Shown: positions 3,639 through 24,608 of the stretch, piece by piece
How positions within the stretch are numbered: position 1 is the stretch's first letter
How the letters are laid out: each line of letters begins with the position of its first letter
NCBI GenBank assembly: GCA_030693415.1
Contig: JAUYAR010000018.1
Location: 1 to 37,388 of the forward strand
Reading direction: 5' to 3'
From: Candidatus Cloacimonadaceae bacterium
Lineage (GTDB): Bacteria > Cloacimonadota > Cloacimonadia > Cloacimonadales > Cloacimonadaceae
Length of the DNA: 37,388 nucleotides
The notes under the pieces: model-generated
The model's input: only the letters and a program-made list of their open reading frames with translations
Databases searched by the model: none
Told to the model about the DNA's origin: nothing
Translations under genes and position numbers: made by a program

Positions 3639-3662
3639 GTAGCGCAGGATGCCGATCCTGCG
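3639..3662 (+). repeat. REP-like hairpin, copy R1
   Basis: GTAG (3639-3642) is followed by a perfect 8-bp stem, CGCAGGAT/ATCCTGCG, closed by a GCCG loop. The GTAG foot is the hallmark of REP sequences mobilised by REP-associated Y1 transposases. It lies 3' of speE and faces copy R2. Confidence 0.75.
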
Positions 3663-3695
3663 GATTGAAAACCGGTCAACCATAATTATCGTTTC

Positions 3696-3719
3696 CGCAG
3701 CAACGGCATGCTGCGCTAC
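3696..3719 (-). repeat. REP-like hairpin, copy R2
   Basis: Read on the minus strand: GTAG, then CGCAGCAT, loop GCCG, TTGCTGCG, with one T-T mismatch next to the loop. It is inverted relative to R1, 33 bases away, giving a BIME-like head-to-head pair between speE and the cyclophilin gene. Confidence 0.7.
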
Positions 3720-8433: not shown

Positions 8434-8510
8434 AAAGCGTTAATCAAGCCTTAATCAAGCGTAATAAAACTAACGCTTGATTAACGCTTGATTAAGGCTT
8501 GATTAACGCT
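8434..8510. repeat. Palindromic array of 11-bp units, copy A
   Basis: The left arm has two units (TTAATCAAGCC, TTAATCAAGCG) after AAAGCG. A 12-bp core, TAATAAAACTAA (8462-8473), follows. The right arm has three units (CGCTTGATTAA twice, GGCTTGATTAA) and CGCT. The arms are inverted copies, and the variant CC/GG unit is outermost on both sides. A REP hairpin starts 8 bases after the array. A second array at 24422-24509 has the core reverse-complemented. Confidence 0.85.
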
Positions 8511-8518
8511 GTCAAGTA

Positions 8519-8542
8519 GTAGCGCAGTATGCCGATCCTGCG
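8519..8542 (+). repeat. REP-like hairpin, copy R3
   Basis: GTAG, then CGCAGTAT, loop GCCG, ATCCTGCG, with one T-C mismatch in the stem. It directly follows palindromic array A, with the GTAG foot toward the array, as in copy R5. Confidence 0.7.
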
Positions 8543-8555
8543 GAAACGAAAGTTT

Positions 8556-8585
8556 GGGCAAAAAATGGGCAAAAAATGGGCAAAT
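8556..8585 (+). repeat. Short tandem repeat
   Basis: Two full copies and one partial copy of the 11-bp unit GGGCAAAAAAT in direct tandem. No function is visible. Confidence 0.7.
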
Positions 8586-8797
8586 CTGCCCCCCTATCTT
8601 CCCAAATCTTCCGAAGATGTATCCCCACAGCTTTCCATAATATCTTTCCATAATGTTGATCCTCAAGGGCGTGAGGAGGGTGAAAATGCAACTGGAATTC
8701 CCCGGCAAGATTAACGTGGGTATCTGAGCAAAGATTAGTATTGACAAGGAGGGGGGATTTCAGAAACTTGGGCAATGATATAAGGGAGAAGATTTCG

Positions 8798-11700
8798 ATG
8801 TTTATAGATCATAGATACGAAGTGTTGGAATCACTTGGTTCCGGCACCTGGGCAAATGTCTATAAAGTGCGTGATATCCGCACTGGGGGGCTTTTTACGC
8901 TGAAGCTTTTCCAATATCTGTCTTCGGAAGATATCTATGCCCGGTTCAGCGCTGAAGACATGCATCACATCACCAAGATTGAGCATCCAAACCTCGCTCA
9001 GGTGGTGGATTTTGGTCATGTGGGCGATCATATCTACTTTATCAGCGACTATTTTGAGGGCAATACGCTCAACAGTTTCCGGTTTGGCAAGACCAAGATC
9101 GGCGCTCTCTATGAGATCGTCGTCCAGATCTGCTACGCGCTCCACGCCTTGCACACCCAAAACATCATCCACAAAGACCTGAAGCTGGAAAACATCCTCT
9201 ACAAAACAGACTCGAAACAGACTATAGTCAAGCTGATCGATTATGGATTTTCTAAGGTGGATGTGAAAAGCACTTCGCAGATGATCTCCGGCACCCTGCC
9301 TTATGTCGCGCCGGAAGTCTATATGGGAAAAGAGGTTGGCTTTGCCAGCGATTTCTATTCACTGGGCGTGATCCTCTATCGCATTATCACCCGCACCTTT
9401 CCATTTAACCTTGAACAAATCAACACTCTGATTTCCGGCAGTCAACAGTATTTCATCCCCATTTTCCCGTCGGAGTCGAATAAGGACATCCCCCTATCAC
9501 TGGAAAAGCTCGTTTTGCGGCTGCTTGAACGCAATCCAGACAACCGTTTTCAGAGCAGCCAGGAAATCATTGCTTATATCAACCGCGCCACAGAGCGCCA
9601 ATATCCCTTCTCCCTCTCGTGGTCGATGGTCAATACAATGCGTTTCAACAGCTATATTGTGCGTGAAAACTATTCCCACCAGATTCTCGATCACCTGCCA
9701 TCGGTGCAACAATCCAACGGCAAAATCATCTCGTTGATGGGTGGTGACGGACTCGGCAAGGACAACATCCTCACGCTATTCCGCTACCACCTCCTTGGCG
9801 GAGAGTATTTTATCTATGACTATGCCTGCACAAGAACGGATCACGAGGCTTTTTTTGCGCTGATCAAGGAATACATCCAATCCTTCTCGCCGGAGGAGAT
9901 CAACGAGTATGTGAGCTTGCAAAATATCTCGGATAAGTTTAAGAGCTATCTCTTTGCCTCTGAGAAGGAAGCGAAAACGCTCACCCAAACCCAGGAAGAG
10001 CTTCGCATAGATTTTGACTCCGTGAAATCGTTATTGATCGATCTGAGCATCCGCAAGCCGATTATCTTCATTATCCGCAATTTCCAATACGTCAATCGCC
10101 ACACGATCGATTTCATCAATTATCTTTCACCCTTCCTCGTGCGCAACCGGATCATGGTGGTGCTGAGTTGCAATGAATTCAACAAAATAAACCAGATCGA
10201 ACACACTATCCTTGTCCACATCCCGATGCTCAGCACGGAACAAACTCTGGCATACATGAAACGCCTTGTCCATGAATCGGTGCCTGAGAGTTTCGCCACC
10301 ATCGTTCATCACCGCAGCGCAGGAAATCCGCAATTTGTGCGCGAAATCATTGTGGATCTGACACTGAAGAATAAGATCAAGAGAGTTGATGGGGAATTGA
10401 TATTCCCTGATACGCTCGCCGGTTATGCCATACCAAGCCGCATCCTCCATTCGGTCTATTCTCGCATGAGCCATATCACAGCGGCGAACTATGCCCATCT
10501 GCAAAAGTTATCCGTTGTCCAGACCCCGCTCTCCCGTGAATTGATTCTTTCGATCCTCAAATTGAGCGATAGCGATCTCTATAATCTGTTGGGTGATGCC
10601 ACCTACAACGAGATTCTCGTCAAATGCGGCAAACATTACTATTTTACATTTCCGGAAGCAAAGCTCCGCTTTTTTGAAGAAACCGCGGTCAAAGTGCATA
10701 TTCTCGTCTCCAAACGCGTGATCCGCTACTATAAAACCAAGACAGTGACGGACATCGAGACCTGTCGTGGCATCATCGCCAATTCCGAGATCGCGGGAGA
10801 CCTTGTTTGTAAGCGTCTTTTCTGCCTGCGCCTTTATCAATTGCTCAGCGAGGAAAACCATCATGAAGCGGCTTATGAAGCGATCCTCAGCGCGCTCAAG
10901 ATAGATTTTGAGCCCGCCGCGGGCATCGATATGAAGGATGTCATCCTTGATCTGATCTGCTTTCAGGAAAAGACGGAGATCACTGGGTTTTTCAAGGAAG
11001 CGGATTTTATAATCGACCATCGGGACAGCATCCCTGAGCTGTTTGAAAAGTATTATGTTTTGGGCACCCTCAAGCTCCTCGCTGAGGACACGGGCAATGC
11101 TCTTGAACTCTTCAAACAAGCGGAAAAGCTTGCCCTCACCGGCAGACAGCGAGTTCAGGGCTATCTTTCTCTCGCGCAAGTCTATAACCGCATCGATTCT
11201 AAGCAGATGAAGCTCTGTCTGGACAAGATCGATCCCCATCAGCTCAGTCTTGACCTGAAGATCGCCTATATTGACCGCCTTGCAGTCTATCATTCATTGA
11301 ACAAGGATAACGACAAAGCGATCAAGATCATCGAGGATTTTTTGGCGGAAATCCCTCCCGGACACGACACCCGCGTGATGCTCCGTCTGGCAGCGATCCA
11401 CAACGACCTGGGCGTGTTTTACAGCGATCAGAAAAATATCTCCGAGGCGGCAGAACACTTGAACCTCGCGCTGGGATTGTGGAAACGCCACAACATCAAC
11501 CGTTATTTGGGCTTGATCTACAACAATATGGCGGATCTCTATCTGAAGCAGGGGATCACCGTCGTAGCCATGGAATATGCCAAACAGGCACACCACTATG
11601 CAGCCAAACTCAATCTCACTATCATTCAGTCGCTGGCTCTGCTCAACCAGGGGGAAGCGAAGATCAAGATGGGGGATTTCACGGGAGCGGAGATAAAGCT

Positions 11701-14254
11701 CAACGAAGCCGGAGTATTGGTACGCTCTGTGGGAAGCACCAGATATTTGGATGCGATACAACGCAATCTTGCCCTCGCCAAGAGCAAGATCATCGGCTTT
11801 GGATATTATCTTAGCTTTATCAAGGAAAACGAGCCACAGCTCTTGGAAGGCTATGTCCCCGAGATCAATCCTTTGGTAAAGACCTATTTTTACTATCTGA
11901 ACGAAATGTCCAACCCCCAAAAGCTGCGTCGTCTGGTACGCAAAAACGTGCATATCAACTATAGCCACATCCACGAAGAGGAATTTTATCACAACGTCCT
12001 CAGCTTGCTCGCTTATTCCGAAAAGGACTATGAAACCGCGCTCAGCGAACTCAAATTGGCGATGCGCTATGCGGGTGAGATCAGCAATAATTATGCCATC
12101 GCCGTGTTCTATACGATGCAGGTCTTTTGCCATTACGGCATGGGAGACTATCAAAAGGCAAGGGAACTGGTGGAAACCGCGAGACCAATCATCGCGGAAA
12201 ACGAGTATCGCTATTGGCAGATGAAGCTGGATATCATATCGCTGATGCTTGACCTCGTAGATGAAGAGATCCCCCTGCGCGGCATTCTCCGGGAGGTTAA
12301 CCGTCGTCTGGAACTCTGTGGAGAGTATCATTATTATCAACTCGCCGTAGAACTGATGCAAATGAAGGTCCAAATCCTCCTTGTGATGAACGCCGAATTA
12401 AACGCTTTGGAAGAATATGAACGCTATCAGGCGTTCCTCGATAAGGTGACTGCGGATATCTGCGAGGACGACCGAACCAACTATATCGCCGTAAATCTCG
12501 GCAATCTCAAGACGCTCAAAAAGTTTGAGCTGGTACGCATCGTTTCCCGCAGCAAGGATATGCGCAACAAATGGAACGAGCTCTTATATAACATCGCCAA
12601 TCTGAACAGCGTGGAACGCATCCGCTTTCTCATCGAAAAAGGCATCTGTCAGGTGATCTCTCCCTGGCAATTTAAGCTCATGGTCTATTCGGAAAAGATA
12701 TCCAATTACTATTGTTTTCATAGCTATAACTGTGCTCAGGATAGCCTGATAACCCCAGAATATCTTCCTTATGTGGAGAGGGCATTTGATGCGGATAACT
12801 TGGTCGTTTTCACTTTTCATCATCAACACACCATGATCATCCCCCTGGTCTCCGGAACCCGCAGGATCGGATTCATCATTGTGAACGACTCCGGCGAGCT
12901 GGAATTCACCCGCTCTGAGATGTCGATCATCCGCAGCGGCAGACAACACATCGCTGCTCTGATTATCAGGATCAACGACTATTCCGAAATCACTTTGCGC
13001 ATCGCCAAAATGAACCAACTGATGAAGATCTCAAATGAACTGATGCGCAACGTCGATATCCTCGATCTGGAACGGGAGATCGTTTCAGCCGCGATCGATT
13101 TTACCAACGCCACGCGTGGGTTTTTGATCAAAAAGGACGCTGAGGGAAACAACCTTTATCAAGTGCAGATGGATCACCAAAAGCAAATACTTTCCAATGT
13201 GTCCGGCATCAGCAAGACAGCGCTTTCCATGAGCCAAACTTCCCAAAGCGCAGTGAGCACCTTCAACGCCCTCGAGGACAAGAGTTTCAAGAGTTCGATC
13301 AGCGTTCAGGAATATGCCATCCACACCATCTATAGCTGCCCGATCAGGGTAGATATGATCGTCTATGGCTATCTCTATCTGGATAATCTGGGAGAGAACA
13401 CTCGAGAGATGTATCTGAACGATGAGATTATCGATCTCTTTCAAAAACAGGTGGAGATTTCGATCAAAAACGCGCTCCATTATGCTGCCATATTGAAGAA
13501 GGGGTCTGAACTAAACGAGATCGAAAGCATCAAAGACGAATTTATGGCGATCGTCTCCCATGAACTCAATACTCCGCTCACTACGCTGCAAGGCTATGTC
13601 TCCAGGCTCAAGCGCAAGCTCTATTCGGACGATGAAGAACGGCAGGAAATCGTTGGTAAGATCGAGAGCTCGGTCAAGAAGCTCATCCTCAGCTCAGGTG
13701 ATATCAGCACGATGAACTATTACAACTTGGCAAAAGACCTTGTCAAAGCTCCCATCGAAATTACTGAGATAATCGACCTGGTGCATCAGGAAGTGGAGAT
13801 CCTCTCCCGCAAACGTAATATGTTCATCAAGATGGAGATCGAAGCCAAGCTACCCAAGATCATGGCAAACTGGGAAGCCATCCACCGCATGATACACAAC
13901 GTCGTTCTCAACGCCATTCGCTTCACCAACAATTTTGGCAACATCACAATCGGCGTCAGGCGTTCTGTCTTTCCCCAGGAAAAGATCGACAACAAGGAAA
14001 GTCTCGTCATTTTCGTGCAAGACAACGGCATCGGAATACCTGAATTTCAGATCAAAAACATCTTCCGTAAATTCTATGAACTGAACGATATCTATGCCCA
14101 CAAATCCGGCACGGTGGAATATCGCTCCAGCGGATTGGGTTTGGGACTCTCGACTGCCAAACGGATCGCAGAATTACACGGCGGTTCCATCAGCATCAAA
14201 AGCAAGGAAAACGAAGGCACCTCGGTGTTTTTGATCCTCCCCTTCAAACATTAA
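8798..14254 (+). CDS. Giant hybrid Ser/Thr kinase - ATPase-like - TPR - GAF - histidine kinase
   Basis: 1,818 aa from ATG 8798 (AGGGAG 9 bases upstream); a longer TTG frame to 8741 has no ribosome site. Residues ~7-270: protein kinase with GSGTWANVY, IIHKDLKLEN, DYG (~149) and GTLPYVAPE, catalytically intact. Residues ~290-560: AAA/STAND-type module whose Walker A reads GGDGLGKD (Asp instead of Ser/Thr) and whose Walker B acids are replaced (IIFIIRN), so probably not an ATPase. Residues ~640-1260: TPR-like helical pairs. Residues ~1269-1400 and ~1404-1565: two GAF-like domains. Then HisKA with SHELNTPL (His1588), N-box NVVLNAIRF, DNGIGIP and GLGLGLS. No membrane segment, so a cytoplasmic sensor. 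Such dual kinases are known in cyanobacteria and myxobacteria. No receiver domain or response regulator lies nearby. Confidence 0.9.
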   Translation: MFIDHRYEVLESLGSGTWANVYKVRDIRTGGLFTLKLFQYLSSEDIYARFSAEDMHHITKIEHPNLAQVVDFGHVGDHIYFISDYFEGNTLNSFRFGKTKIGALYEIVVQICYALHALHTQNIIHKDLKLENILYKTDSKQTIVKLIDYGFSKVDVKSTSQMISGTLPYVAPEVYMGKEVGFASDFYSLGVILYRIITRTFPFNLEQINTLISGSQQYFIPIFPSESNKDIPLSLEKLVLRLLERNPDNRFQSSQEIIAYINRATERQYPFSLSWSMVNTMRFNSYIVRENYSHQILDHLPSVQQSNGKIISLMGGDGLGKDNILTLFRYHLLGGEYFIYDYACTRTDHEAFFALIKEYIQSFSPEEINEYVSLQNISDKFKSYLFASEKEAKTLTQTQEELRIDFDSVKSLLIDLSIRKPIIFIIRNFQYVNRHTIDFINYLSPFLVRNRIMVVLSCNEFNKINQIEHTILVHIPMLSTEQTLAYMKRLVHESVPESFATIVHHRSAGNPQFVREIIVDLTLKNKIKRVDGELIFPDTLAGYAIPSRILHSVYSRMSHITAANYAHLQKLSVVQTPLSRELILSILKLSDSDLYNLLGDATYNEILVKCGKHYYFTFPEAKLRFFEETAVKVHILVSKRVIRYYKTKTVTDIETCRGIIANSEIAGDLVCKRLFCLRLYQLLSEENHHEAAYEAILSALKIDFEPAAGIDMKDVILDLICFQEKTEITGFFKEADFIIDHRDSIPELFEKYYVLGTLKLLAEDTGNALELFKQAEKLALTGRQRVQGYLSLAQVYNRIDSKQMKLCLDKIDPHQLSLDLKIAYIDRLAVYHSLNKDNDKAIKIIEDFLAEIPPGHDTRVMLRLAAIHNDLGVFYSDQKNISEAAEHLNLALGLWKRHNINRYLGLIYNNMADLYLKQGITVVAMEYAKQAHHYAAKLNLTIIQSLALLNQGEAKIKMGDFTGAEIKLNEAGVLVRSVGSTRYLDAIQRNLALAKSKIIGFGYYLSFIKENEPQLLEGYVPEINPLVKTYFYYLNEMSNPQKLRRLVRKNVHINYSHIHEEEFYHNVLSLLAYSEKDYETALSELKLAMRYAGEISNNYAIAVFYTMQVFCHYGMGDYQKARELVETARPIIAENEYRYWQMKLDIISLMLDLVDEEIPLRGILREVNRRLELCGEYHYYQLAVELMQMKVQILLVMNAELNALEEYERYQAFLDKVTADICEDDRTNYIAVNLGNLKTLKKFELVRIVSRSKDMRNKWNELLYNIANLNSVERIRFLIEKGICQVISPWQFKLMVYSEKISNYYCFHSYNCAQDSLITPEYLPYVERAFDADNLVVFTFHHQHTMIIPLVSGTRRIGFIIVNDSGELEFTRSEMSIIRSGRQHIAALIIRINDYSEITLRIAKMNQLMKISNELMRNVDILDLEREIVSAAIDFTNATRGFLIKKDAEGNNLYQVQMDHQKQILSNVSGISKTALSMSQTSQSAVSTFNALEDKSFKSSISVQEYAIHTIYSCPIRVDMIVYGYLYLDNLGENTREMYLNDEIIDLFQKQVEISIKNALHYAAILKKGSELNEIESIKDEFMAIVSHELNTPLTTLQGYVSRLKRKLYSDDEERQEIVGKIESSVKKLILSSGDISTMNYYNLAKDLVKAPIEITEIIDLVHQEVEILSRKRNMFIKMEIEAKLPKIMANWEAIHRMIHNVVLNAIRFTNNFGNITIGVRRSVFPQEKIDNKESLVIFVQDNGIGIPEFQIKNIFRKFYELNDIYAHKSGTVEYRSSGLGLGLSTAKRIAELHGGSISIKSKENEGTSVFLILPFKH

Positions 14255-14256
14255 AT

Positions 14257-17160
14257 ATGAGATATGCTATGCGAAAGATCAGTCTAATCATCATCCTGAT
14301 GCTCCTCTGTGCCATAGTTTTGAGTGCGCAGAGCCCGCGTGAACTGGATGACTTTTCCTACATCATCGAGCTTTATGACCTGGGCGAATATGCTGAGGTC
14401 GAAAGCGAGATAGATTTCTTCAAACGGCAGTATCCGGATTCGGCTTTCAGGCTCTATACGGATTACATCGTGGCAAACATCGCCCTCAGCCGTGGTGAAT
14501 ATCGACGCAGCCAAACTATCTACAGTGCACTGATCAAGAACAAACTGCATCCGGACATCCTTGGTGACGTCTATCTGAACTATGCCATCAGTTGCTATCA
14601 GACGGGAGAATTGAATCGCGCCATAGAGCTGCTGCAGCATCTATCATCCATACTCGATCACCCTTATTACAACTATCATGCCAACGTCTGGCGGGCGAAG
14701 GCATATTCCGCACAGGGCATGTATCTCTCCGCGGAACACGAATATACCAAGGCTTTGAAACAAACCCCGGCAGACAAACAACTGCGCTTTGATCACTATC
14801 GCGTGCTCCTCAAGCTTGATCGTGACGACCCCGCGCAAACGATGATCGCCAAGGTAGACAGCCTCGAGAGAGAAAGATACACTCTCGCCTGGCTGGAGCA
14901 TCTACTTTATTATCAACGCTATAGTGATATGGATGCCTATCTCGGAAAGAACAATATCAACGTAAGCTCCGCTACCGATCCCATGCGCCTTTTGATGCTT
15001 CGCAAGGCATTGGCGGTCAAAGATATGGCTATGGCAGAGAACCTTCTGGGGATGATAAAGTCTGACCCGGAAGCCAAACGCTATCTGAGAGCGCTGTTTC
15101 TGATGGAAAAAGGAAAAAAAGACGAAGCTGATACCATATTTCGCGATCTGGTACGGGGAGCTGAGCCGGAGATCAGGTTTTTATCCTATCTGGAAAGGCT
15201 CAAAATCAGTTTCGGGACGAATCCACAACAAGCCATCGCTGCTCTCGAGGACTACATCGCATCCCAGACCACGCAAAGCTGGCGGGGCGAGCAGTATTTA
15301 CAACTCGGCGTCTTCTATTTTGACCGACAGGACTATGCTTCCGCCATCCGCAATCTTGTCAAAGCCAGAAACTTTGAGCTTAATCCAGAACTGCTCGACC
15401 GGCTGGAGTTTCTGATCCCGGAAGCCTATTATTTTCTCGGGGAAAAACGTCTCGCAAGGGACAATTTCAACCGCTATCTAAACCTCTATTCACGCGGACG
15501 TTATCGTGAAAAAGCACTCTTGCGCATCGGCATCATCGCCTTTCAGGACAACGATCAAAAACTGGCAAGCGCGAACCTGAAACAGATCGTGGAGATGTAT
15601 CCAAAATCAGAGACGGTCTCGTCGGCGCGTTTCTATCTGGGAGAGATTAATTTTTATGCGTCCAATTACAATCTGGCGCTGACGGATTACACTCTCATCG
15701 AAAATGATCCCAAGCTCGGAACGGATGCGCGTCGCCGCATTGTCCAATGCCTTTTTTACCTGGAGGATTATTCCACCGCCCTGGCGAAACTGGGAAGAAT
15801 CCCCAAATCCGAATGGAACCTTGAGTTGCAATTGCTATTGGCAAGCGTGCATTTCAACCAAAAGAACTATCAGCATGCTCTGATCGAATATACAATCGCG
15901 GAAAACATGGCAACCACGCCACAAAGCAAGACCGAGGCTCAGAGCTACAAAGCCTACACCCTCTATTACCTGAAACGGTTCAACGACGCCTCCGCGCTGT
16001 TCTATGATCTATCCAAGCTTAGCGCCAGTCCGGACATCTATCTCTATCAAGCGGCAAAATCCGCCTACCAGGCTCGCAACTATAAGCATGCTTTGTATTT
16101 ATACGACATGCTCATCGATGAATACCCAGATTCGCCGTATTTCTTGAAAGTCCTCACTGAAATGGCATATTCAAACTATAATCTGGGGCTCTATGAAGTT
16201 GCTTTCGCAGACTGGCTGAATATCCTAAGGCGCTACACGGCGGTCACTTCCATCTCTGTCGAGGATCAAAACCAGCTTGAGGATATCTTCAACGGCATAT
16301 CGATCTCCCTGTCCCATTTGAAGGATATGCAATATGTCGTCGATCTGATAGGGATGGTGGAGACATTCAACAGCGAATACATCAAGTTTGAGCTTCAGTT
16401 CATCCTCGTCAAGCAATACGCGGACACTAAACAGTGGCGCGAACTCTTGGCGGAGGCGGAAAAGATCCGGCAAAACTACCCGACTCGCCGTCATAACGAG
16501 CTTGAGCTCCTGATGGCGGAATCGCTCATCCGTTTGAACCAAGCTGCACGGGCGGAAAGCCTCGTGAGCGACATCGACACGGAAACTATTTCTACCGAAA
16601 ACCTCCTGCGCTTGGGTGAGCTTGCACTGCTAACCAAGGATTATGAAGTTGCCATGGAGAAATATCTCCAAGCCTTTGAACGGCAAGCGAGTCCGGCTCT
16701 GTGGGTGGATATTCTCGATCTCTCTCAAAAGCTTGATTTTAATGATTTTGAGCGGACCTGGCAGATGGGCATGCAGAGGAACTATGCTCATTCACAAGCA
16801 CGCATATTGCGTCTGAACTATCTGATGTACAGTAAGTTAGATGTGGAAGCCGAAAACTTGGCAAATTTGATCCTCGATACGGACAACAACCAGTATAACC
16901 GCGCACAGGCTGAGACCGCCAAAGGAACGATATTCTACCAAAGAAAGGACTTTGTCCGTGCCATTAGTTCCTTTCGCAGGATCCGGCTCATCTTTAGGGA
17001 TTTTCCCGATATCCTTGTCAATGCACATTATTATTACATCGTCAGCCTCATTCAGAACGGCGCTCTCAAAGAAGGACAGCTCGTGCTCTGGGAAGTCCAG
17101 ATTCAATTCAGCGATGATCAGATCATCTCGATCAACAAGCTCCTGGACGATAAAAGATGA
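14257..17160 (+). CDS. Large exported TPR protein
   Basis: 967 aa with an N-terminal signal sequence (MRKISLIIILMLLCAIVLSAQ) after a few extra residues. ATG 14257 lies 2 bases after the kinase stop, and ATG 14269 is an equally good alternative. The rest is almost wholly helical TPR-type repeats, with recurring patterns such as A...Y..A and YP.S......LGEI. It should work in the periplasm as a protein-protein scaffold. The stop overlaps the next ATG (ATGA, 17157-17160), coupling it to an outer-membrane barrel gene. Large TPR proteins next to barrel proteins are common in Bacteroidota-like genomes. The exact partner is unknown. Confidence 0.8.
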   Translation: MRYAMRKISLIIILMLLCAIVLSAQSPRELDDFSYIIELYDLGEYAEVESEIDFFKRQYPDSAFRLYTDYIVANIALSRGEYRRSQTIYSALIKNKLHPDILGDVYLNYAISCYQTGELNRAIELLQHLSSILDHPYYNYHANVWRAKAYSAQGMYLSAEHEYTKALKQTPADKQLRFDHYRVLLKLDRDDPAQTMIAKVDSLERERYTLAWLEHLLYYQRYSDMDAYLGKNNINVSSATDPMRLLMLRKALAVKDMAMAENLLGMIKSDPEAKRYLRALFLMEKGKKDEADTIFRDLVRGAEPEIRFLSYLERLKISFGTNPQQAIAALEDYIASQTTQSWRGEQYLQLGVFYFDRQDYASAIRNLVKARNFELNPELLDRLEFLIPEAYYFLGEKRLARDNFNRYLNLYSRGRYREKALLRIGIIAFQDNDQKLASANLKQIVEMYPKSETVSSARFYLGEINFYASNYNLALTDYTLIENDPKLGTDARRRIVQCLFYLEDYSTALAKLGRIPKSEWNLELQLLLASVHFNQKNYQHALIEYTIAENMATTPQSKTEAQSYKAYTLYYLKRFNDASALFYDLSKLSASPDIYLYQAAKSAYQARNYKHALYLYDMLIDEYPDSPYFLKVLTEMAYSNYNLGLYEVAFADWLNILRRYTAVTSISVEDQNQLEDIFNGISISLSHLKDMQYVVDLIGMVETFNSEYIKFELQFILVKQYADTKQWRELLAEAEKIRQNYPTRRHNELELLMAESLIRLNQAARAESLVSDIDTETISTENLLRLGELALLTKDYEVAMEKYLQAFERQASPALWVDILDLSQKLDFNDFERTWQMGMQRNYAHSQARILRLNYLMYSKLDVEAENLANLILDTDNNQYNRAQAETAKGTIFYQRKDFVRAISSFRRIRLIFRDFPDILVNAHYYYIVSLIQNGALKEGQLVLWEVQIQFSDDQIISINKLLDDKR

Positions 17161-18671
17161 CGAAGAGCCTCCTGATTCCGATCCTCTTCGCGTTTACGGC
17201 TTTTGCCCTCGGACAGGTGCAAACCCTCCCGGAAGTTGAGATTCAGGGCGACGCCAAGATCAGGTTACCATTGATCAAGAAACCGGTGACACTCGAGCAT
17301 ATAGTCAGCGATGCCGATTCACTGCCCAGTTATTATCCTTCTTCATTACCGGAATCTGAGTATGGGCGGTCATTGCTTTTTCATCCAGCCCGCAAGGCAA
17401 CGCTCAAAGCACGGCTCAGCACGGATTTTGGCAGCGAGGTCGCCATCACCTGGTATCCACGTTTGAGACATATACCTCTGCTCAAATTCGACGCTGAAAT
17501 AGGTATTCCCGGCTCCAAGTGGTTATATCAAAGGGAAGAGCTTGATCTGGGCATCCGTCTCAGTCCCCGTCTTGGTTTCAACGCCGGTGGGGGATATCAA
17601 TACGCAGACACCGATTACTATAGAGTCCATGGCTTATACATGAGCCTTGCCAATCGCTATGACAGCCTGCGCATCGGCAGCGTCAAGCTCGCGAACCTGA
17701 ATACTGAGATCGGCTTTGATCACCTCAACCAACAGATCGAACTCGATGGCTTGGGTGGAGACCATATCTATTTGCGTCATAAACACCGCCTGAAGTGGGA
17801 TAAACATCAGCTACAGAGTAGCTTCCTTCTTGCATCAAACGCCACCGGCATCGCTTTGCAATACCGTCCGCTCTACAGTATCTGGAAACTACCGAGGCTG
17901 GAGTATGTCATGTTGACCGATTTCCGTCATATCATTCCAAGCATCGCCTTTTCCCATAGGTTCGATCCCGGCAGAAATCTCATCCTCGATGTGGAGAGCA
18001 GTCCCTACATCGAAACGGCTTCCCAAAACGAGCGACTGAAGGAATATAAATGGTTTGCTTTGGGAACTTACAACCGCGTCTCATCGGTTCCGCTCAATCT
18101 CAACGCGGATATCTATTACTGGGTTCCTTCCATACAGCGCTTGCCGCATGGCAGAAGCATCTATAGCTCACGCCTTGGCAGGATCGGCATATCACATACA
18201 ATGCGTTATATTCTTGATGCCCCAACGCTAGACGGTGGCGGTTATCTGAGATTGCCACGGGTGCGCTATACCGACGTTTTTGAGAATATCAGCGTGCTCA
18301 AATTCGATTATCAGCTCTGGGGAACAGATCTAAGCCAAAGCCTGCAGCTCAATATCTCTCATCTGCCGGATCAGGAGATGAAAGCCAAGCCCTATACACC
18401 TCTCTACACATCGCGCAGCGAGCTTTCCAGACGCGTTTACGACATCGATTTCAAGCTTGGTTTCGTGGCTGAGTATTTTGTCAAAGATCACCTTGGTGAG
18501 AATCTAAAACCGGTGACCGATCTCAGCCTCGGAGGTGAATATCGAGTCTGCAAAAACGGAACCGTCTTCACCACGCTGGAAAATATCTTTGGCACTCCCT
18601 ACCACAGCTACAAAGGTCTTCCTACCAAAGGTAGAAACCTCGTCGCCGGTTTCCGCTACTTGCTCTACTAA
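17157..18671 (+). CDS. Outer-membrane beta-barrel protein, TonB-receptor-like without a plug
   Basis: 504 aa with signal peptide MTKSLLIPILFAFTAFALGQ. The mature start, TLPEVEIQGD, resembles the beginning of TonB-dependent receptors, but there is no room for a plug domain. The body is alternating aromatic/polar beta strands, and the chain ends GFRYLLY, a terminal aromatic signature of barrels inserted by BAM. The phrase LENIFGTPYHSYKGLPTKGR matches the last strands of TonB receptors. It is translationally coupled to the exported TPR gene, so the two probably form a periplasm/outer-membrane complex. The transported substrate, if any, is unknown. Confidence 0.75.
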   Translation: MTKSLLIPILFAFTAFALGQVQTLPEVEIQGDAKIRLPLIKKPVTLEHIVSDADSLPSYYPSSLPESEYGRSLLFHPARKATLKARLSTDFGSEVAITWYPRLRHIPLLKFDAEIGIPGSKWLYQREELDLGIRLSPRLGFNAGGGYQYADTDYYRVHGLYMSLANRYDSLRIGSVKLANLNTEIGFDHLNQQIELDGLGGDHIYLRHKHRLKWDKHQLQSSFLLASNATGIALQYRPLYSIWKLPRLEYVMLTDFRHIIPSIAFSHRFDPGRNLILDVESSPYIETASQNERLKEYKWFALGTYNRVSSVPLNLNADIYYWVPSIQRLPHGRSIYSSRLGRIGISHTMRYILDAPTLDGGGYLRLPRVRYTDVFENISVLKFDYQLWGTDLSQSLQLNISHLPDQEMKAKPYTPLYTSRSELSRRVYDIDFKLGFVAEYFVKDHLGENLKPVTDLSLGGEYRVCKNGTVFTTLENIFGTPYHSYKGLPTKGRNLVAGFRYLLY

Positions 18672-18739
18672 AGGATTTGGAGTTCGCGGAATGTGTGAAA
18701 ATTATCGCTTGAGCAACTCATTGAAAGAGAAGTGCAAGA

Positions 18740-19591
18740 ATGAACGATAGGGTCAGAAAGTATCTCTATCAGGCGGCTCGCTACTTCTTTGGTGATTTCA
18801 ACGGAGTGCAGGTGTTTCTCTATCCCGGTTTGCTGTTCTATCTGATCGACCGTGAGAGCCTGCTTCAAGTTATCACCCGGTTGTTTTTGATCAACGTGCA
18901 TTATTTCCCGATCAGCATATTCTTTATGTTGATGATCTATGTCGGATTCATTATTCTCAAGAAATACACCATGTATTTCACGGACAATGTCCGGCGCTCA
19001 AATACCGACCGCGAGCTATTCAAAGCATTCATTATTGATCTGCACGAAAAGCTTTTGGTCGTGGTCGTGATCTTCATGCTCGCCTATGTCTTTGCCGCTT
19101 TCATGAAATACTTCTATGGTTTCCGGGTGCCGATGAAAATGATCTTTCCGATGGCGACGCGAGTCATCTGCATATTTCTGATCGTTTATTATTATTTGGC
19201 ACATGTGTGGACGGAACCGATCCGCCTCTGTGGCCATAATCTGAAATATTCACGGTTGCGTCTGATGGTATTTATCAGACGCAATCCTTTCTCGTTCATA
19301 CGCTTTAGCATCGTGCTCACGTTGATGATCATGATCAGCAGCAAGCTCTATTATGGCATAGTCCAGTATGTTTTACATCCAATATTGACCGATCTTTCCG
19401 GTGGAAGGGAATCTGCATTTACTTTCATCCTCATCCCCCTTGAAGGAAGCTCTGCTCTGGTCTATAACGTCCTTGTAATCTCCGCAGCATTCATTATCTC
19501 CAACCTGTTTTTCGCTCCGTTGGTCTATGGCGTCAACCTCTTTGCACATCAATATCACCCTTTAAATATGAGATACCAACCCCATGCCTAA
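18740..19591 (+). CDS. Polytopic inner-membrane protein of unknown function
   Basis: 283 aa with about six hydrophobic segments, including FPISIFFMLMIYVGFIIL, LLVVVVIFMLAYVFAAF, VICIFLIVYYYLAHVW, SIVLTLMIMIS and VLVISAAFIISNLFFAPLVYG. These are separated by basic loops (KKYT, RRSN, RLMVFIRRN). There is no ABC, transporter or enzyme motif and I recognise no family. It lies 68 bases after the barrel gene and overlaps the deacetylase gene by 8 bases (ATGCCTAA). It therefore belongs to an envelope gene series and may serve cell-wall or polysaccharide handling. Confidence 0.7.
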   Translation: MNDRVRKYLYQAARYFFGDFNGVQVFLYPGLLFYLIDRESLLQVITRLFLINVHYFPISIFFMLMIYVGFIILKKYTMYFTDNVRRSNTDRELFKAFIIDLHEKLLVVVVIFMLAYVFAAFMKYFYGFRVPMKMIFPMATRVICIFLIVYYYLAHVWTEPIRLCGHNLKYSRLRLMVFIRRNPFSFIRFSIVLTLMIMISSKLYYGIVQYVLHPILTDLSGGRESAFTFILIPLEGSSALVYNVLVISAAFIISNLFFAPLVYGVNLFAHQYHPLNMRYQPHA

Positions 19592-20831
19592 ACAACGCGC
19601 CAAAAGGAAAAAAACCGGCAAAGGGAAAAGCAAAGCCTCGAATATCGGCGTCTTCATCGTTGTCGGATTGATCTGTGCAACGCTCGTGTGGTACATCATC
19701 CGCGACACGTCGATCTTGGAAAGAAGCAAAAACGACGAGAAGTCAGAACAGGAAGCCACCGCTCCAGGCGCAAAGGGAAAAAACTCCAACAACGGGTCAC
19801 AGATATCTCCGACCGATTTATCCGCTGCCCCTGCTGAACAAAGCCTGGATCTCATCATCGAATCCACCCTCGAAAACATGGATATCGCATCCCACATCTA
19901 TCGTCGGCAGACAAAGCCAGATAGCTATATCTACAACGTCCCCCTCAACCGCGGAGAGATGGAGATGAATTATGCAAACATGCTATTCAAGGGCTATGTC
20001 GAGCGTGGGGGAGGAGTGCTTGACACCGCTATCGAAAGCGGTAGCAAACAGATCATGACCTTTAGTAAAAAGGGAGACCCCAAGAAATATCAAGTTGTCC
20101 TCTATTACGATTCCAAGCCCTATGCCACAAAAATCACGTCGCGTAATATCGCCATCGTCGTGGATGATTTTGGCACCATCGGCGGCGAGCTTTTGGAGGG
20201 CTTCTTAGACCTGCCGCCAGAAGTTACGTTCGCCATCTTTCCGGAAATGCACAATAGCGTCCACACCATGGATAGAGCCCATCAGCAAGGACGCGAGAGC
20301 ATCATTCACGTGCCGATGGAACCTATCGGCTTCCCCAAGGTCGATCCCGGTAAAAACGCCATCCTCGTCCAAATGAAGGATGGCGAGATCGACCGTCTGA
20401 TCAACCGCTTTATCAATAATATGCCGCTCTGCATCGGCATCAACAATCACATGGGCAGCCTTGCCACCACCGATCCGGACATCATGCAAGCCGTCATGAT
20501 TACCGTCAAGGCAAGGGACAGGATATTTCTCGACAGCCGCACCTCAAACGTCTCAGTGGCATATCAGACCGCTCAGAAAGCGCATATTCCCGCTTTTCGA
20601 AACGACATCTTTCTGGATTCTCCGGATATCAGCAAAAAAACCATGGACGCCAAGCTGGAACAGATCATTTCCATGTCCGCAACAAACAATAGCATCATCG
20701 CCATCACGCATTGTCATAACAAGGACAAACTTGTCTATTTGCGGGAGTTTATCGCCCGCCTCAGAAAAGAGGGCTTTAATCTGGTTCCGCTTTCCAAGAT
20801 CGGAAAGTATTCGGTTCCGCAAATCTTGTGA
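19584..20831 (+). CDS. Divergent polysaccharide deacetylase family protein (YibQ-like), membrane-anchored
   Basis: 415 aa. A very basic N-terminus (KQRAKRKKTGKGK) is followed by one membrane segment (IGVFIVVGLICATLVWYII), so the rest is periplasmic. A polar linker comes next, then the divergent polysaccharide deacetylase domain from ~185: IAIVVDDFG, FAIFPE, IIHVPMEP, NNHMGS, RIFLDSRTS and IITHC-type strands. The family fold is that of NodB-like deacetylases, but the substrate is unknown in most members. The 3' neighbour uppP and the overlapping membrane protein support a role in the envelope. Confidence 0.85.
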   Translation: MPKQRAKRKKTGKGKSKASNIGVFIVVGLICATLVWYIIRDTSILERSKNDEKSEQEATAPGAKGKNSNNGSQISPTDLSAAPAEQSLDLIIESTLENMDIASHIYRRQTKPDSYIYNVPLNRGEMEMNYANMLFKGYVERGGGVLDTAIESGSKQIMTFSKKGDPKKYQVVLYYDSKPYATKITSRNIAIVVDDFGTIGGELLEGFLDLPPEVTFAIFPEMHNSVHTMDRAHQQGRESIIHVPMEPIGFPKVDPGKNAILVQMKDGEIDRLINRFINNMPLCIGINNHMGSLATTDPDIMQAVMITVKARDRIFLDSRTSNVSVAYQTAQKAHIPAFRNDIFLDSPDISKKTMDAKLEQIISMSATNNSIIAITHCHNKDKLVYLREFIARLRKEGFNLVPLSKIGKYSVPQIL

Positions 20832-20837
20832 GTTGAT

Positions 20838-21650
20838 ATGAACTTCTTTACTTCGATATTAATGGGCATTTTGCAAGGGCTGACGGAGTTTCTCCCCGTG
20901 AGCAGCTCCGGGCATCTCGTTTTAGCGGGTCATCTCTTTGGTATCAAGGAAGATGGCAATATCCTATTTGAAGTGTTTTTGCATCTCGGCACGCTGATGG
21001 CAGTACTCATCTATTTCCGCAAGACTCTGTGGGACTTGGTAGTATCTCTCACAAGCTGGCGCGGAACCTTGCGCAGCCAGGTGCATCGCCACAACCGCCT
21101 CATCCTCCTCTATCTGATCATCGCCACGATCGGTACGAGCATAATCTATTTACTTTTCGGGGATTTCTTCAAGTCCTTGTATGACAAACCGATGGTTGTG
21201 GCATTTATGCTCCTTGTCACCGGCAGCGTGGTTTTCATCTCGGACTACGTCAAAACCGGATCAATCCCTTCAAACTCGATGGGAATCATACGAGCGCTCA
21301 TAATCGGTCTGGCACAGGGGCTGGCGATCATCCCGGGTCTATCGAGATCGGGCGCCACTATCGGCACCTCGCTGTATTGCGGGCTCAAACGCAAAGACGC
21401 TGCATATTTTTCCTTCCTATTGAGCATTCCCGCAATTTTGGCGGCGAATATCAGTGAGTTCGGTGCTTTGCGCCAGCTCGAAACAAAGCAGTTTTCCATC
21501 TATCTGGGTGGATTCCTCGCTTCCTTTGCAGTGGGCTATCTCGTCATGTCCATTCTCATCCAATTGATCCAACAAAACAAGCTGAAATATTTTGCCTATT
21601 ACTGTTGGTTTATCGGACTTTCTGCCATCACTCTGTTGTCCATGAACTAA
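20838..21650 (+). CDS. uppP: Undecaprenyl-diphosphate phosphatase
   Basis: A 270-aa integral membrane enzyme that removes one phosphate from undecaprenyl diphosphate and so recycles the lipid carrier for peptidoglycan and surface glycans. Both signatures are present: QGLTEFLPVSSSGH (13-26) and AQGLAIIPGLSRSG (~158-171). About eight hydrophobic segments and a normal length fit the BacA/UppP family, which can give bacitracin tolerance. The ATG lies 6 bases after the deacetylase stop, so the genes are probably co-transcribed. Confidence 0.95.
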   Translation: MNFFTSILMGILQGLTEFLPVSSSGHLVLAGHLFGIKEDGNILFEVFLHLGTLMAVLIYFRKTLWDLVVSLTSWRGTLRSQVHRHNRLILLYLIIATIGTSIIYLLFGDFFKSLYDKPMVVAFMLLVTGSVVFISDYVKTGSIPSNSMGIIRALIIGLAQGLAIIPGLSRSGATIGTSLYCGLKRKDAAYFSFLLSIPAILAANISEFGALRQLETKQFSIYLGGFLASFAVGYLVMSILIQLIQQNKLKYFAYYCWFIGLSAITLLSMN

Positions 21651-21655
21651 GCATA

Positions 21656-22675
21656 ATGAGCGCGATATCCATCACCGCCCAGGAATTTGACCCCTCCATC
21701 GTGGAGCTTGGCAAGTCTTTTCTGATCATTGGCACTGACGCGTATCTCATAGACCAGGTGTGCGACGCCGTGCGCATAGTCCTCAAAGATAAGTTTGGTG
21801 CGGATATCATCATACTTTATGCAGACGAGATCAAGATCGCTGAATTGAATGATCATCTGGATAGCTTTTCCATCTTTTCCACTGCCAAGTTGCTCTTCAT
21901 CAAAAACGCGGATAACCTAAACGTGAACACGAAAAAGAAGGAACTACAGGCATTGGCGGATTATTTTTCTGCGCCGTCCGAAAACCAGAGCATGCTCATC
22001 GTCGCCGAAAAGGTCGATCTGCGCACCTCCGCTTGGAAGAAGATCAAAGAAGGTTGCATCCACATTTTATGCGATCCTCCAAAGTATGGGACTGCGATCC
22101 GCCCCTGGCTCGAAAAGCAGCTTCGCGCCCATGGTAAAAGTATGGACAGCAGAGCGATCGAAACTTTCTGCTCGCGCATCGAGCTGGATTATGCAAATGC
22201 CAATAACGAACTGACCAAGCTGATCCTGCTCAATCTCGATTCCAAGCTGATCAAGGAAGCGGACGTTTTGATCAGCATCGGCAGCTCGCGCGTGGGAACT
22301 TTGATCGATTTTTATCGTGCGATGGGCACCCGCAACCCAAAGAACTGCCTCGAATTGCTCGAACGTATGCTCAATTCCGAATGGGAGGCATTGCAGGTCT
22401 CTTATCACCTCAATAAATTCTATAACATCATCTGGCGGATATTGTTGCTCAAACAAAACCACATCACTCCAGCCGAGATCCTCAAGACCCATCTGGCAGA
22501 ACTGTATCCCAGGCAGAGACAGGAGTTTATCAATTTCTCAAAAAATTATAATCTTGCCGATATTGAAAACGCCTTGTCTCTGCTTTTGGATACCGATTCC
22601 AAGATCAAGCTCAGCGCCGCCCAACCCGCAGTGCTTCTCGAGATGTGCCTTTTGGGGATCTTGGCGGCAAAATGA
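21656..22675 (+). CDS. holA: DNA polymerase III subunit delta
   Basis: 339 aa from ATG 21656, 5 bases after uppP; an upstream in-frame extension lies inside uppP and is rejected. It begins with the family pattern: SFLIIGTDAYLIDQ, then ADIIILYADE and the LFSTAKLLFIKNAD region. The middle and C-terminal helices (KWEALQ-like EWEALQVSYHLNKFYNIIWRIL) fit the collar domain. Delta opens the beta sliding clamp as part of the clamp loader. The divergent but full-length sequence is usual for HolA outside Proteobacteria. The stop overlaps the malQ ATG (ATGA). Confidence 0.85.
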   Translation: MSAISITAQEFDPSIVELGKSFLIIGTDAYLIDQVCDAVRIVLKDKFGADIIILYADEIKIAELNDHLDSFSIFSTAKLLFIKNADNLNVNTKKKELQALADYFSAPSENQSMLIVAEKVDLRTSAWKKIKEGCIHILCDPPKYGTAIRPWLEKQLRAHGKSMDSRAIETFCSRIELDYANANNELTKLILLNLDSKLIKEADVLISIGSSRVGTLIDFYRAMGTRNPKNCLELLERMLNSEWEALQVSYHLNKFYNIIWRILLLKQNHITPAEILKTHLAELYPRQRQEFINFSKNYNLADIENALSLLLDTDSKIKLSAAQPAVLLEMCLLGILAAK

Positions 22676-24177
22676 AAAAACATGGCGTTTTACTACATAT
22701 CAGTTCTCTGCCGGGAGATTTCGGGATCGGAGATTTTGGTCCTGCCGCTTACCGGTTTGCCGAATATTTAGCGCAAAGAAAATGTGCCTACTGGCAGATA
22801 TTACCACTAAATCATTGCGGTTACGGCAATTCACCATATAATCCTATCTCGGCGTTTGCATTAAATCCATATCTGATCAGTCCGGAATTGCTCTTTCAGG
22901 ATGGGCTTATCGAATATGATGATCTGATCTCTGCAAAGCATCCATCCTCGCCCCAAATCGCCTTCGAAACGGTTTTCAAAGCAAAAGACAAGCTTTTCCG
23001 CAAAGCGGGGGAAAACTGGCTAATAAACCACGACGTCCATGCTTTCATCAATGAAAACGCCTATTGGCTGAAACCATATATTGCATTCACCACCCTGTGC
23101 AAGCTCTATGAGGATTGCACCTGGAACAGTTTCGCGCCCCAGCACAGACGCTATTCGGATCAGCTCTATGACAAGCTGATGGAGGATTTCTCCACCGGAA
23201 TGCTCAATACGGCAGCCTGTCAGGCAATCCTCGAAGATCAGATATCTCGCTTCAAAGCGGTTTTGATCGAAAATAACATCACCCTCATTGGTGATATGCC
23301 GCTCTACCTATCCCTCCACAGCACTGAGGTTTGGGCACATCAGGAGCTCTTTGAACTGACCGAAAACGGCGAGCCCACAAGCGTGGCAGGCGTTCCACCC
23401 GATGCCTTTGCCGAGGAGGGACAGCTTTGGGGAAACCCAATTTACAGATGGGAGACGATGCGCCATCAACGTTATCCGCTTTTCACCGCTCGCATCGGAC
23501 ACGCTCTTAAGTTTATCGACCGCTTGCGTTTGGATCATTTCATCGGATATGTGAACTATTGGAATGTGCCATGTGCTTGGGACGCTAAAACTCAAAAACA
23601 TATCCTGCCGGAAGATGCCAGAGGCGGAAATTGGATCCCTGCTCCGGGAGATGATTTCTTTGGTCATATCTGCTATCATTTTTCCGCCGATCGTTTCATC
23701 GCCGAAGACCTTGGCATCCTAAACGAAGAGGTTTGCCGCATCCGCGGGAAATATGGCTTCCCCGGCATGATCATCCTACAGTTTTGCTTTGAAGAAAGCG
23801 TACCACGGGTACATGAATATCCTTTTGACCGCTATCTCTATACCGGAACGCACGACAATCCGACCATACGTGAATGGTTCGAAGCACTTGAACCAGAATC
23901 AGATAGCTATAAAAACTTAATGCAGTATGTGAAAGAAAATCCGCATATACTTGATCCGCAAGCGGATGAGCAGGAGATAAGCTATAGAATTGATGATTTC
24001 ATCAAAGCCGAAAACATCCACAAACTGATGATAAACATCACACTAACATCAGGTTGCGAAAAAATTATCATTCCCATGCAGGATATTCTTGGGCTGGATT
24101 CCTACGCTCGGATGAATATCCCCGGTACCGCACTTGGTAATTGGCAATGGCGTATGACTGAAAATTTGGTTCTTTGA
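22672..24177 (+). CDS. malQ: 4-alpha-glucanotransferase (amylomaltase)
   Basis: 501 aa from ATG 22672, overlapping the holA stop. It moves alpha-1,4-glucan segments between maltodextrins (GH77). The start HGVLLHISSLPGDFGIGDFG is the family N-terminus. Catalytic residues are visible: nucleophile Asp288 in RLDHF, acid/base Glu345 in AEDLG, and Asp395 in GTHDN. WGNPIYRW and the loop EDARGGNWIPAPG are also present. Length is that of the ~500-aa bacterial type, without the N-terminal extension of enteric MalQ. It implies glycogen or maltodextrin metabolism. It is the last gene of the plus-strand series. Confidence 0.95.
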   Translation: MKKHGVLLHISSLPGDFGIGDFGPAAYRFAEYLAQRKCAYWQILPLNHCGYGNSPYNPISAFALNPYLISPELLFQDGLIEYDDLISAKHPSSPQIAFETVFKAKDKLFRKAGENWLINHDVHAFINENAYWLKPYIAFTTLCKLYEDCTWNSFAPQHRRYSDQLYDKLMEDFSTGMLNTAACQAILEDQISRFKAVLIENNITLIGDMPLYLSLHSTEVWAHQELFELTENGEPTSVAGVPPDAFAEEGQLWGNPIYRWETMRHQRYPLFTARIGHALKFIDRLRLDHFIGYVNYWNVPCAWDAKTQKHILPEDARGGNWIPAPGDDFFGHICYHFSADRFIAEDLGILNEEVCRIRGKYGFPGMIILQFCFEESVPRVHEYPFDRYLYTGTHDNPTIREWFEALEPESDSYKNLMQYVKENPHILDPQADEQEISYRIDDFIKAENIHKLMINITLTSGCEKIIIPMQDILGLDSYARMNIPGTALGNWQWRMTENLVL

Positions 24178-24289
24178 TGACCGATTCTGCCGATTTGCCA
24201 AGCATCGCCCCTGCGATTACTCAAACCGTCATATCCAACCTTCCACCCTGCTATCTATTCATTTTTCAGTGATCTAACAGTATCACAAT

Positions 24290-24308
24290 GACAATCGCCT
24301 CGATTGTC
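24290..24308. repeat. Perfect short hairpin downstream of malQ
   Basis: GACAATCG and CGATTGTC form an 8-bp perfect stem around a CCT loop, 112 bases after the malQ stop. No T-run follows, so it is not a standard terminator; it could stabilise the mRNA end. Confidence 0.5.
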
Positions 24309-24393
24309 CACCCTACTCACCACTCGAGACGTGTGAAATTACAAATCTGACTGCCAATTGACTCTCCAAATTGACTTCCAATTTGCACACCAC

Positions 24394-24417
24394 CGCAACA
24401 TCGGCATGTTGCGCTAC
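24394..24417 (-). repeat. REP-like hairpin, copy R4
   Basis: Read on the minus strand: GTAG, CGCAACAT, loop GCCG, ATGTTGCG, a perfect stem. Relative to R5 the fifth stem pair is A-T instead of G-C, a compensated change. Its foot points toward array B, 4 bases away. Confidence 0.75.
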
Positions 24418-24421
24418 ATCC

Positions 24422-24509
24422 AAAGCGTAAATCAAGCGTTAATCAAGCGTTAATCAAGCGTTAGTTTTATTACGCTTGATTAACGCTTGATTAAGGATTG
24501 ATTAACGCA
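24422..24509. repeat. Palindromic array of 11-bp units, copy B
   Basis: The left arm has AAAGCG and three units (TAAATCAAGCG, TTAATCAAGCG twice). The core is TTAGTTTTATTA (24461-24472). The right arm has CGCTTGATTAA twice, GGATTGATTAA and CGCA. The core is the exact reverse complement of the core in copy A. The array lies between two REP hairpins whose GTAG feet both face it. Confidence 0.85.
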
Positions 24510-24527
24510 GCCAAGGCGGAGAGCAGT

Positions 24528-24551
24528 GTAGCGCAGCATGCCGATGCTGCG
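24528..24551 (+). repeat. REP-like hairpin, copy R5
   Basis: GTAG, CGCAGCAT, loop GCCG, ATGCTGCG, a perfect 8-bp stem. It looks like the consensus form of the family. It follows array B after 18 bases and lies downstream of plsC (minus strand). Confidence 0.75.
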
Positions 24552-24608
24552 GAAGCGACTGGGATAAAATGAATTGAACATGGAGGACGCGGATCGGTAT
24601 GATCTAGG

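Follow-up and report, generated by a model that had tools for sequence, protein, structure and literature searches.

The inverted arrays of 11-bp units in this stretch of Cloacimonadota DNA are, in our view, on balance part of an undescribed pairing of a protein with a DNA repeat, in which an autoregulated DNA-binding protein would be matched to an array at its own promoter and this array would spread through the genome as a selfish repeat. The array is linked to the gene of a small basic protein and overlaps its promoter, related genes have arrays of the same 11-bp architecture, arrays and proteins co-diversify, the distribution is patchy, and the context of the gene is not conserved. The window, by which we mean the whole 37,388-nucleotide stretch, is one contig of the source genome (G000; Cloacimonadota, 2.81 Mb, 185 contigs).

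The two arrays of the window consist of inverted copies of the unit TTAATCAAGCG placed around a 12-bp core. Copy A (8437–8509, unstranded) comprises GCG, two units (8440–8461), the core (8462–8473), three inverted units (8474–8506) and CGC, and copy B (24425–24508, unstranded) comprises GCG, three units (24428–24460), the core (24461–24472), three inverted units (24473–24505) and CGC. The core of copy A, TAATAAAACTAA, is assigned to the minus strand, where it reads TTAGTTTTATTA, which is the core of copy B on the plus strand. A REP lies to the right of copy A (8519–8543, plus strand) with its GTAG foot toward the array, and copy B is bracketed by one REP on the left (24393–24417, minus strand) and one on the right (24528–24552, plus strand), both with the GTAG foot toward copy B. 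The original prediction was therefore accurate in its positions for both arrays, in describing the two cores as exact reverse complements and in giving the right-hand REPs of both copies the same orientation. Just downstream of copy A, positions 8798–14254 encode an 1818-aa protein with a Ser/Thr kinase domain at the N-terminus, a TPR-like middle and a histidine kinase domain at the C-terminus (Pfam).

Within the source genome, the window array pattern is much more frequent than chance would allow: 135 matches to the two-unit pattern (68 and 67 on the two strands) stand against 0 for the reversed control, and the core pattern has 40 copies, 20 per strand. Cores unrelated to those of the window, which would have spoken against a single element, are not seen; rather, 36 of the 40 are free of mismatches, and these near-identical copies support the proposal of an undescribed dispersed element. 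The array spans ~105 bp, and its 11-bp units flank a core of 11 or 12 bp. The number of units is mostly fixed at 3+3 (26/40 copies), whereas the remaining copies have lost whole units to give 3+2, 2+2, 2+1, 2+3 or 1+3; the arms thus expand and contract as suggested, by whole 11-bp units, though most copies are 3+3. Every copy with assessable flanks is intergenic, and the flanking gene pairs fall into convergent, divergent and tandem classes much like the background, with none preferred.

Among the genomes examined, the palindromes of the window are a genome-wide repeat confined to a single family of Cloacimonadota. When 84,980 species genomes were scanned with the pattern TTAATCAAGCG-N9..14-CGCTTGATTAA, at least 105 stretches matched, nearly all of them labelled Candidatus Cloacimonadota. 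Outside the source genome the core is 11 bp long and reads TTAATTATTAA in 84 of 106 cases among the matches listed. A covariance model places the element in 30 of 125 Cloacimonadota genomes, all from one family and spread over nine genera, and copies within one genus range from 0 in some members to at least 31 in others (the palindrome being counted on both strands). In aligned arrays the information content drops to zero ~40 bp outside the innermost unit; the two next units outward are not the same in different species, yet inside one element they mostly mirror each other. Two array-bearing contigs sit in bins named for other phyla, L129 in an Atribacteria bin and L178 in a Firmicutes bin. 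We do not read these as spread outside Cloacimonadota, mis-binning being likely because the L129 gene clusters with Cloacimonadota genes. Our literature search found no paper on such repeats in Cloacimonadota.

The candidate partner protein emerged from open reading frames located within 2.5 kb of arrays in twelve genome groups, which were clustered without prior hypothesis. Besides common domains, one family of ~147 aa stood out, and in five genomes only 30–75 bp separate its gene start from an array, such that the proposal to look for a protein tied to the 11-mer proved fruitful. The family is basic (median pI 9.5) and retains Gly14, Arg33, Ser60, Tyr70, Leu107, Ala128, Gly132 and Leu133 as invariant residues. 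Searches of Pfam, PHROGs, NCBIfam, PADLOC and PDB gave no match, whether to a DNA-binding or catalytic domain or to anything else; 19 divergent paralogs were included as queries for Pfam, PHROGs, PADLOC and PDB. The fold predicted from four close sequences has a pLDDT of 44. The family is multi-copy, with up to 29 members per genome, and is present in 53 of 125 Cloacimonadota genomes. The subfamily nearest to the array-linked proteins is found in 22 of the 30 array-bearing genomes, two of these 22 having genes that are contig-edge fragments, compared with 1 of the 20 genomes of the bacterial family that have no array (Fisher p=1e-6, relatedness ignored). Eight array-bearing genomes, some near-complete, do not have this subfamily, and the array-free exception (G010) carries the gene with no palindrome upstream. 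Carriage by phages or plasmids was considered and dropped, since phage and plasmid records and viral contigs gave no match to the ~147-aa protein and no array was found in viral contigs.

The position of the array relative to the gene coincides with promoter elements. Among 54 gene-proximal arrays, TTGACA occurs 26 times on the gene strand and once on the opposite strand. In nearly all members of the top subfamily, the −35 box TTGACA sits at the array's outer edge, −51 to −54 relative to the start codon, and is followed 16–17 bp on by an A/T-rich hexamer resembling NANAAT. This is the usual promoter type, because mraZ promoters of the same genus and family read TTGACA-N17-TATAA. At two loci (L284 and L285) the array lies upstream of the promoter. 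The natural inference from these sequences is that the ~147-aa protein would regulate its own gene.

Arrays are not restricted to the top subfamily. A palindrome (score of at least 12) lies within 300 bp upstream of 53 of 98 family genes compared with 6 of 400 control genes (p=4e-37), and about half of the paralogs have none within this distance. For the 34 palindrome-bearing paralogs outside the top subfamily, the self-match of the arrays is 0.548 at a lag of 11 and 0.449 at a lag of 22, compared with ~0.25 at every other lag. The units themselves differ between paralogs (CATTACGCTAT, GCATTACGGTA, TATCCAGTCGG, TTCATCGGGTG and others), and only the 11-bp periodicity is common. Likewise, a survey of long inverted repeats for periods of 5–20 bp, covering a further 0.7 Mb that had been chosen on the basis of the first array, gave a period of 11 bp wherever any period was strong (79/79). 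An earlier idea of CtrA/OmpR-type sites, suggested by TTAA every 11 bp, was set aside, as the paralog arrays have other sequences. We also note that the arrays at L142:7729-7820, L172:7722-7816 and L394 and those of G042, G006 and VGPI consist of unrelated units with similar outermost ends, CTTCCTTGCTT and AAGCAAGGAAG, which could be a sequence recognised for spreading.

The similarity of the arrays follows that of the proteins: sharing of array 7-mers correlates with protein identity (Mantel r=0.75, or 0.59 without the top subfamily; p=2e-4). Part of this co-variation is due to common descent of the flanking sequence, since upstream sequence is inherited with the gene; for other genes at 45–60% identity, upstream similarity was seen in 0 of 6 pairs, a small set. 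If each paralog array represents a repeat family, its unit should be dispersed in its own genome, and this was predicted and then found. The unit CATTACGCTAT has 32+29 matches in G004 and is also dispersed in two congeners, and CAATACGGACT has 114+117 matches in the source genome, 130+123 in G013, 112+113 in G051 and 19+20 in G007, compared with none or one in five other genomes. Dispersal is thereby established for three units. Indeed, the source genome harbors a second array family, with the unit CAATACGGACT/CATTACGGAGT, that is more numerous than the TTAATCAAGCG family of the window (C1:88-143, C2:667-722, C37:49774-49805 and about 60 further loci), and the paralog at C37:49956-50393 has a CAATACGGACT array at −212 to −144. 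We tentatively extend the proposal to a radiating family of small proteins, each paralog reading its own 11-bp code from an inverted array that lies in its own promoter region and is copied chromosome-wide; these would constitute many independent selfish regulatory pairs and a transposase-free counterpart of REP/RAYT, although we would not yet favor this wider form.

The neighbors of the partner gene are not common to the genomes, except for two pairs, and gene and array would therefore change place. In the source genome, the copy at C94:8269-8709 is intact and pairs with a TTAATCAAGCG array with the 12-bp core, whereas the copy on C84 is a pseudogene, and its array is built on the 11-bp core seen in other genera. 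At the mraZ locus, an array of the type described here is present in G042 and absent from congeners with a long enough upstream region, and two congeners carry arrays of other units in the mraZ gap; this empty-site comparison yields no exact insertion point, as the flank beyond is not conserved. No autonomous transposon with matching ends was found in a search near the arrays.

A second explanation holds that Y1 (HUH) enzymes of the RAYT or IS200 type mobilise the arrays as non-autonomous elements, with the small-protein gene as a passenger that has an array in its promoter by coincidence. The REPs (GTAGCGCAGCATGCCGATGCTGCGG type) form a separate family of 178 copies in the source genome. Within 100 bp of the 40 arrays there are 32 REPs, and every one turns its GTAG foot toward the array; the distances are quantised, mostly 34, 36 or 46 bp, and shifted by 11 or 22 where units are missing. 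Among the best 94 of the 178 REPs, 41 have a listed array no more than 110 bp away, from one or the other of the two array families, and 40 of these 41 are foot-in; about half have no listed array nearby. The composite REP-array-REP unit with inward-facing feet that was proposed for copy B is thus real and general. Window REPs are not all tied to arrays, as a REP pair at 3639–3719 has none; this inverted pair has its feet outward, as an ordinary REPIN, and the array-side REPs face the opposite way.

The foot-in, quantised placement of REPs would suit mobilisation by Y1 enzymes, as would the three RAYT-like genes of the source genome, one of them ~0.6 kb from an array, the IS200-type transposases adjoining arrays or family genes in G004, G007, G013 and G001, and the long hairpins, which fit single-strand transposition. 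IS200-type Y1 genes beside family genes or 11-bp arrays are seen at G004:C13:556145-557401, G004:C13:288456-289645, L328, L329 and L332. However, the RAYT on C45 is flanked by REPs rather than by a TTAATCAAGCG array and is likely the REP enzyme, some of the IS200-type genes have GAGTCC...GGACTC end hairpins of their own that are unlike the arrays, and Y1 genes occur in genomes both with and without arrays. We therefore reject the arrays as ends of RAYT or IS200 elements, their hairpins and flanking REPs being different. A passenger gene also leaves the paralog-specific 11-bp arrays and the match between unit and protein unexplained, and we regard this explanation as unlikely; Y1 enzymes possibly act as helpers of array movement.

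A role in chromosome organisation or segregation, where the protein would polymerise along repeats of one helical turn and bridge dispersed sites in the manner of ParR on parC, is in our estimation less probable still. The sites recognised by ParR (parC of plasmid R1) and by OmpR/CtrA-type proteins have 11-bp phased units and the adjacent gene is autoregulated, and the phasing of the arrays, their many intergenic positions without a preferred gene orientation, the basic protein and the array over its own promoter are all reminiscent of such systems. In the arrays, however, the units are inverted about a core and exist in tens to hundreds of chromosomal copies, and the ~147-aa family is unrelated by sequence to ParR or OmpR/CtrA. 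It also speaks against such a role that the arrays are patchy even inside genera and missing in most of the phylum, that several unrelated arrays occur per genome, and that no ParM-like partner recurs beside the gene.

It is very doubtful that the palindrome acts as RNA, folding into a long hairpin to terminate transcription or to protect the ends of mRNAs. The arms do stay complementary while the outer units vary, with 155 cells changed on both sides between species compared with 88 in shuffles, but symmetric DNA sites yield the same covariation; convergent gene ends are not preferred and divergent sites are equally common, the window has no Rfam match at the gathering score, and the arrays upstream of the promoter (L284 and L285) would escape transcription with the gene. 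Least probable of all is the DNA switch or replication through a cruciform envisaged in the original prediction: core orientation is indeed divided evenly between the contig strands (20:20), as if at random, and shows no association with REP side (15:9, p=0.31), but this needs no flipping because the palindrome ends are equivalent and a REP attaches at either, no recombinase recurs beside the arrays, and no locus is seen in both orientations (one genome per species).

Compared with known systems, the array and its protein work most like REP/REPIN-RAYT, with which they share a dispersed, intergenic, multicopy palindrome, a linked low-copy trans-acting gene, a patchy distribution and co-diversification of repeat and protein, but they fall outside that family by its defining features. 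A REP/REPIN is a hairpin of 20–40 bp with a GTAG (or CGTC) foot, and REPs of this type with GTAG feet are present in the source genome itself, whereas the array has 3+3 units of 11 bp around a core and no foot. Similarly, RAYT is a Y1 transposase flanked by the repeat, whereas the array partner has no Y1 match in Pfam, PHROGs or NCBIfam and, unlike RAYT, has an array overlapping its own promoter. ERIC/IRU and BOX elements resemble the array as imperfect palindromes of ~100–130 bp that are intergenic, numerous and without clear target-site duplication, but to our knowledge they have neither a cognate protein nor an 11-bp unit structure. The suggested likeness to MITEs is partial: the short, non-coding, inverted structure and its dispersal agree, flanking direct repeats of 2–8 bp are not in excess at the arrays, and a search near the arrays found no parent element with matching ends.

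We therefore return to the pairing of an autoregulated protein with a selfish promoter array. Each array would be recognised, through its multiple units, by one member of the ~147-aa basic family, and in the best-studied subfamily, where the promoter lies inside the array, the protein would bind this array and repress its own gene. The copies scattered between genes may then be a selfish palindromic repeat dependent on this protein, with host or HUH-transposase functions perhaps also needed for persistence and spread, while gene and array would travel together between sites and genomes. REPs dock at the array ends with the foot inward. Diversification of paralogs together with their units would give several independent protein/array pairs per genome, as proposed in the source genome for C94:8269-8709 with the TTAATCAAGCG arrays and for C37:49956-50393 with the CAATACGGACT arrays.

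It has long been asked how short palindromic repeats that have no recognisable transposase come to colonise bacterial genomes, and we know of no agent for ERIC, BOX and others. Here, a repeat class has a linked and co-diversifying candidate protein, with dozens of natural protein/array pairs, such that binding specificity, autoregulation and spread are directly testable in a standard host, with the promoter overlap as a quantitative read-out. Swaps of specificity are available in nature as a series of paralogs, in what is a candidate DNA-recognition family without known fold.
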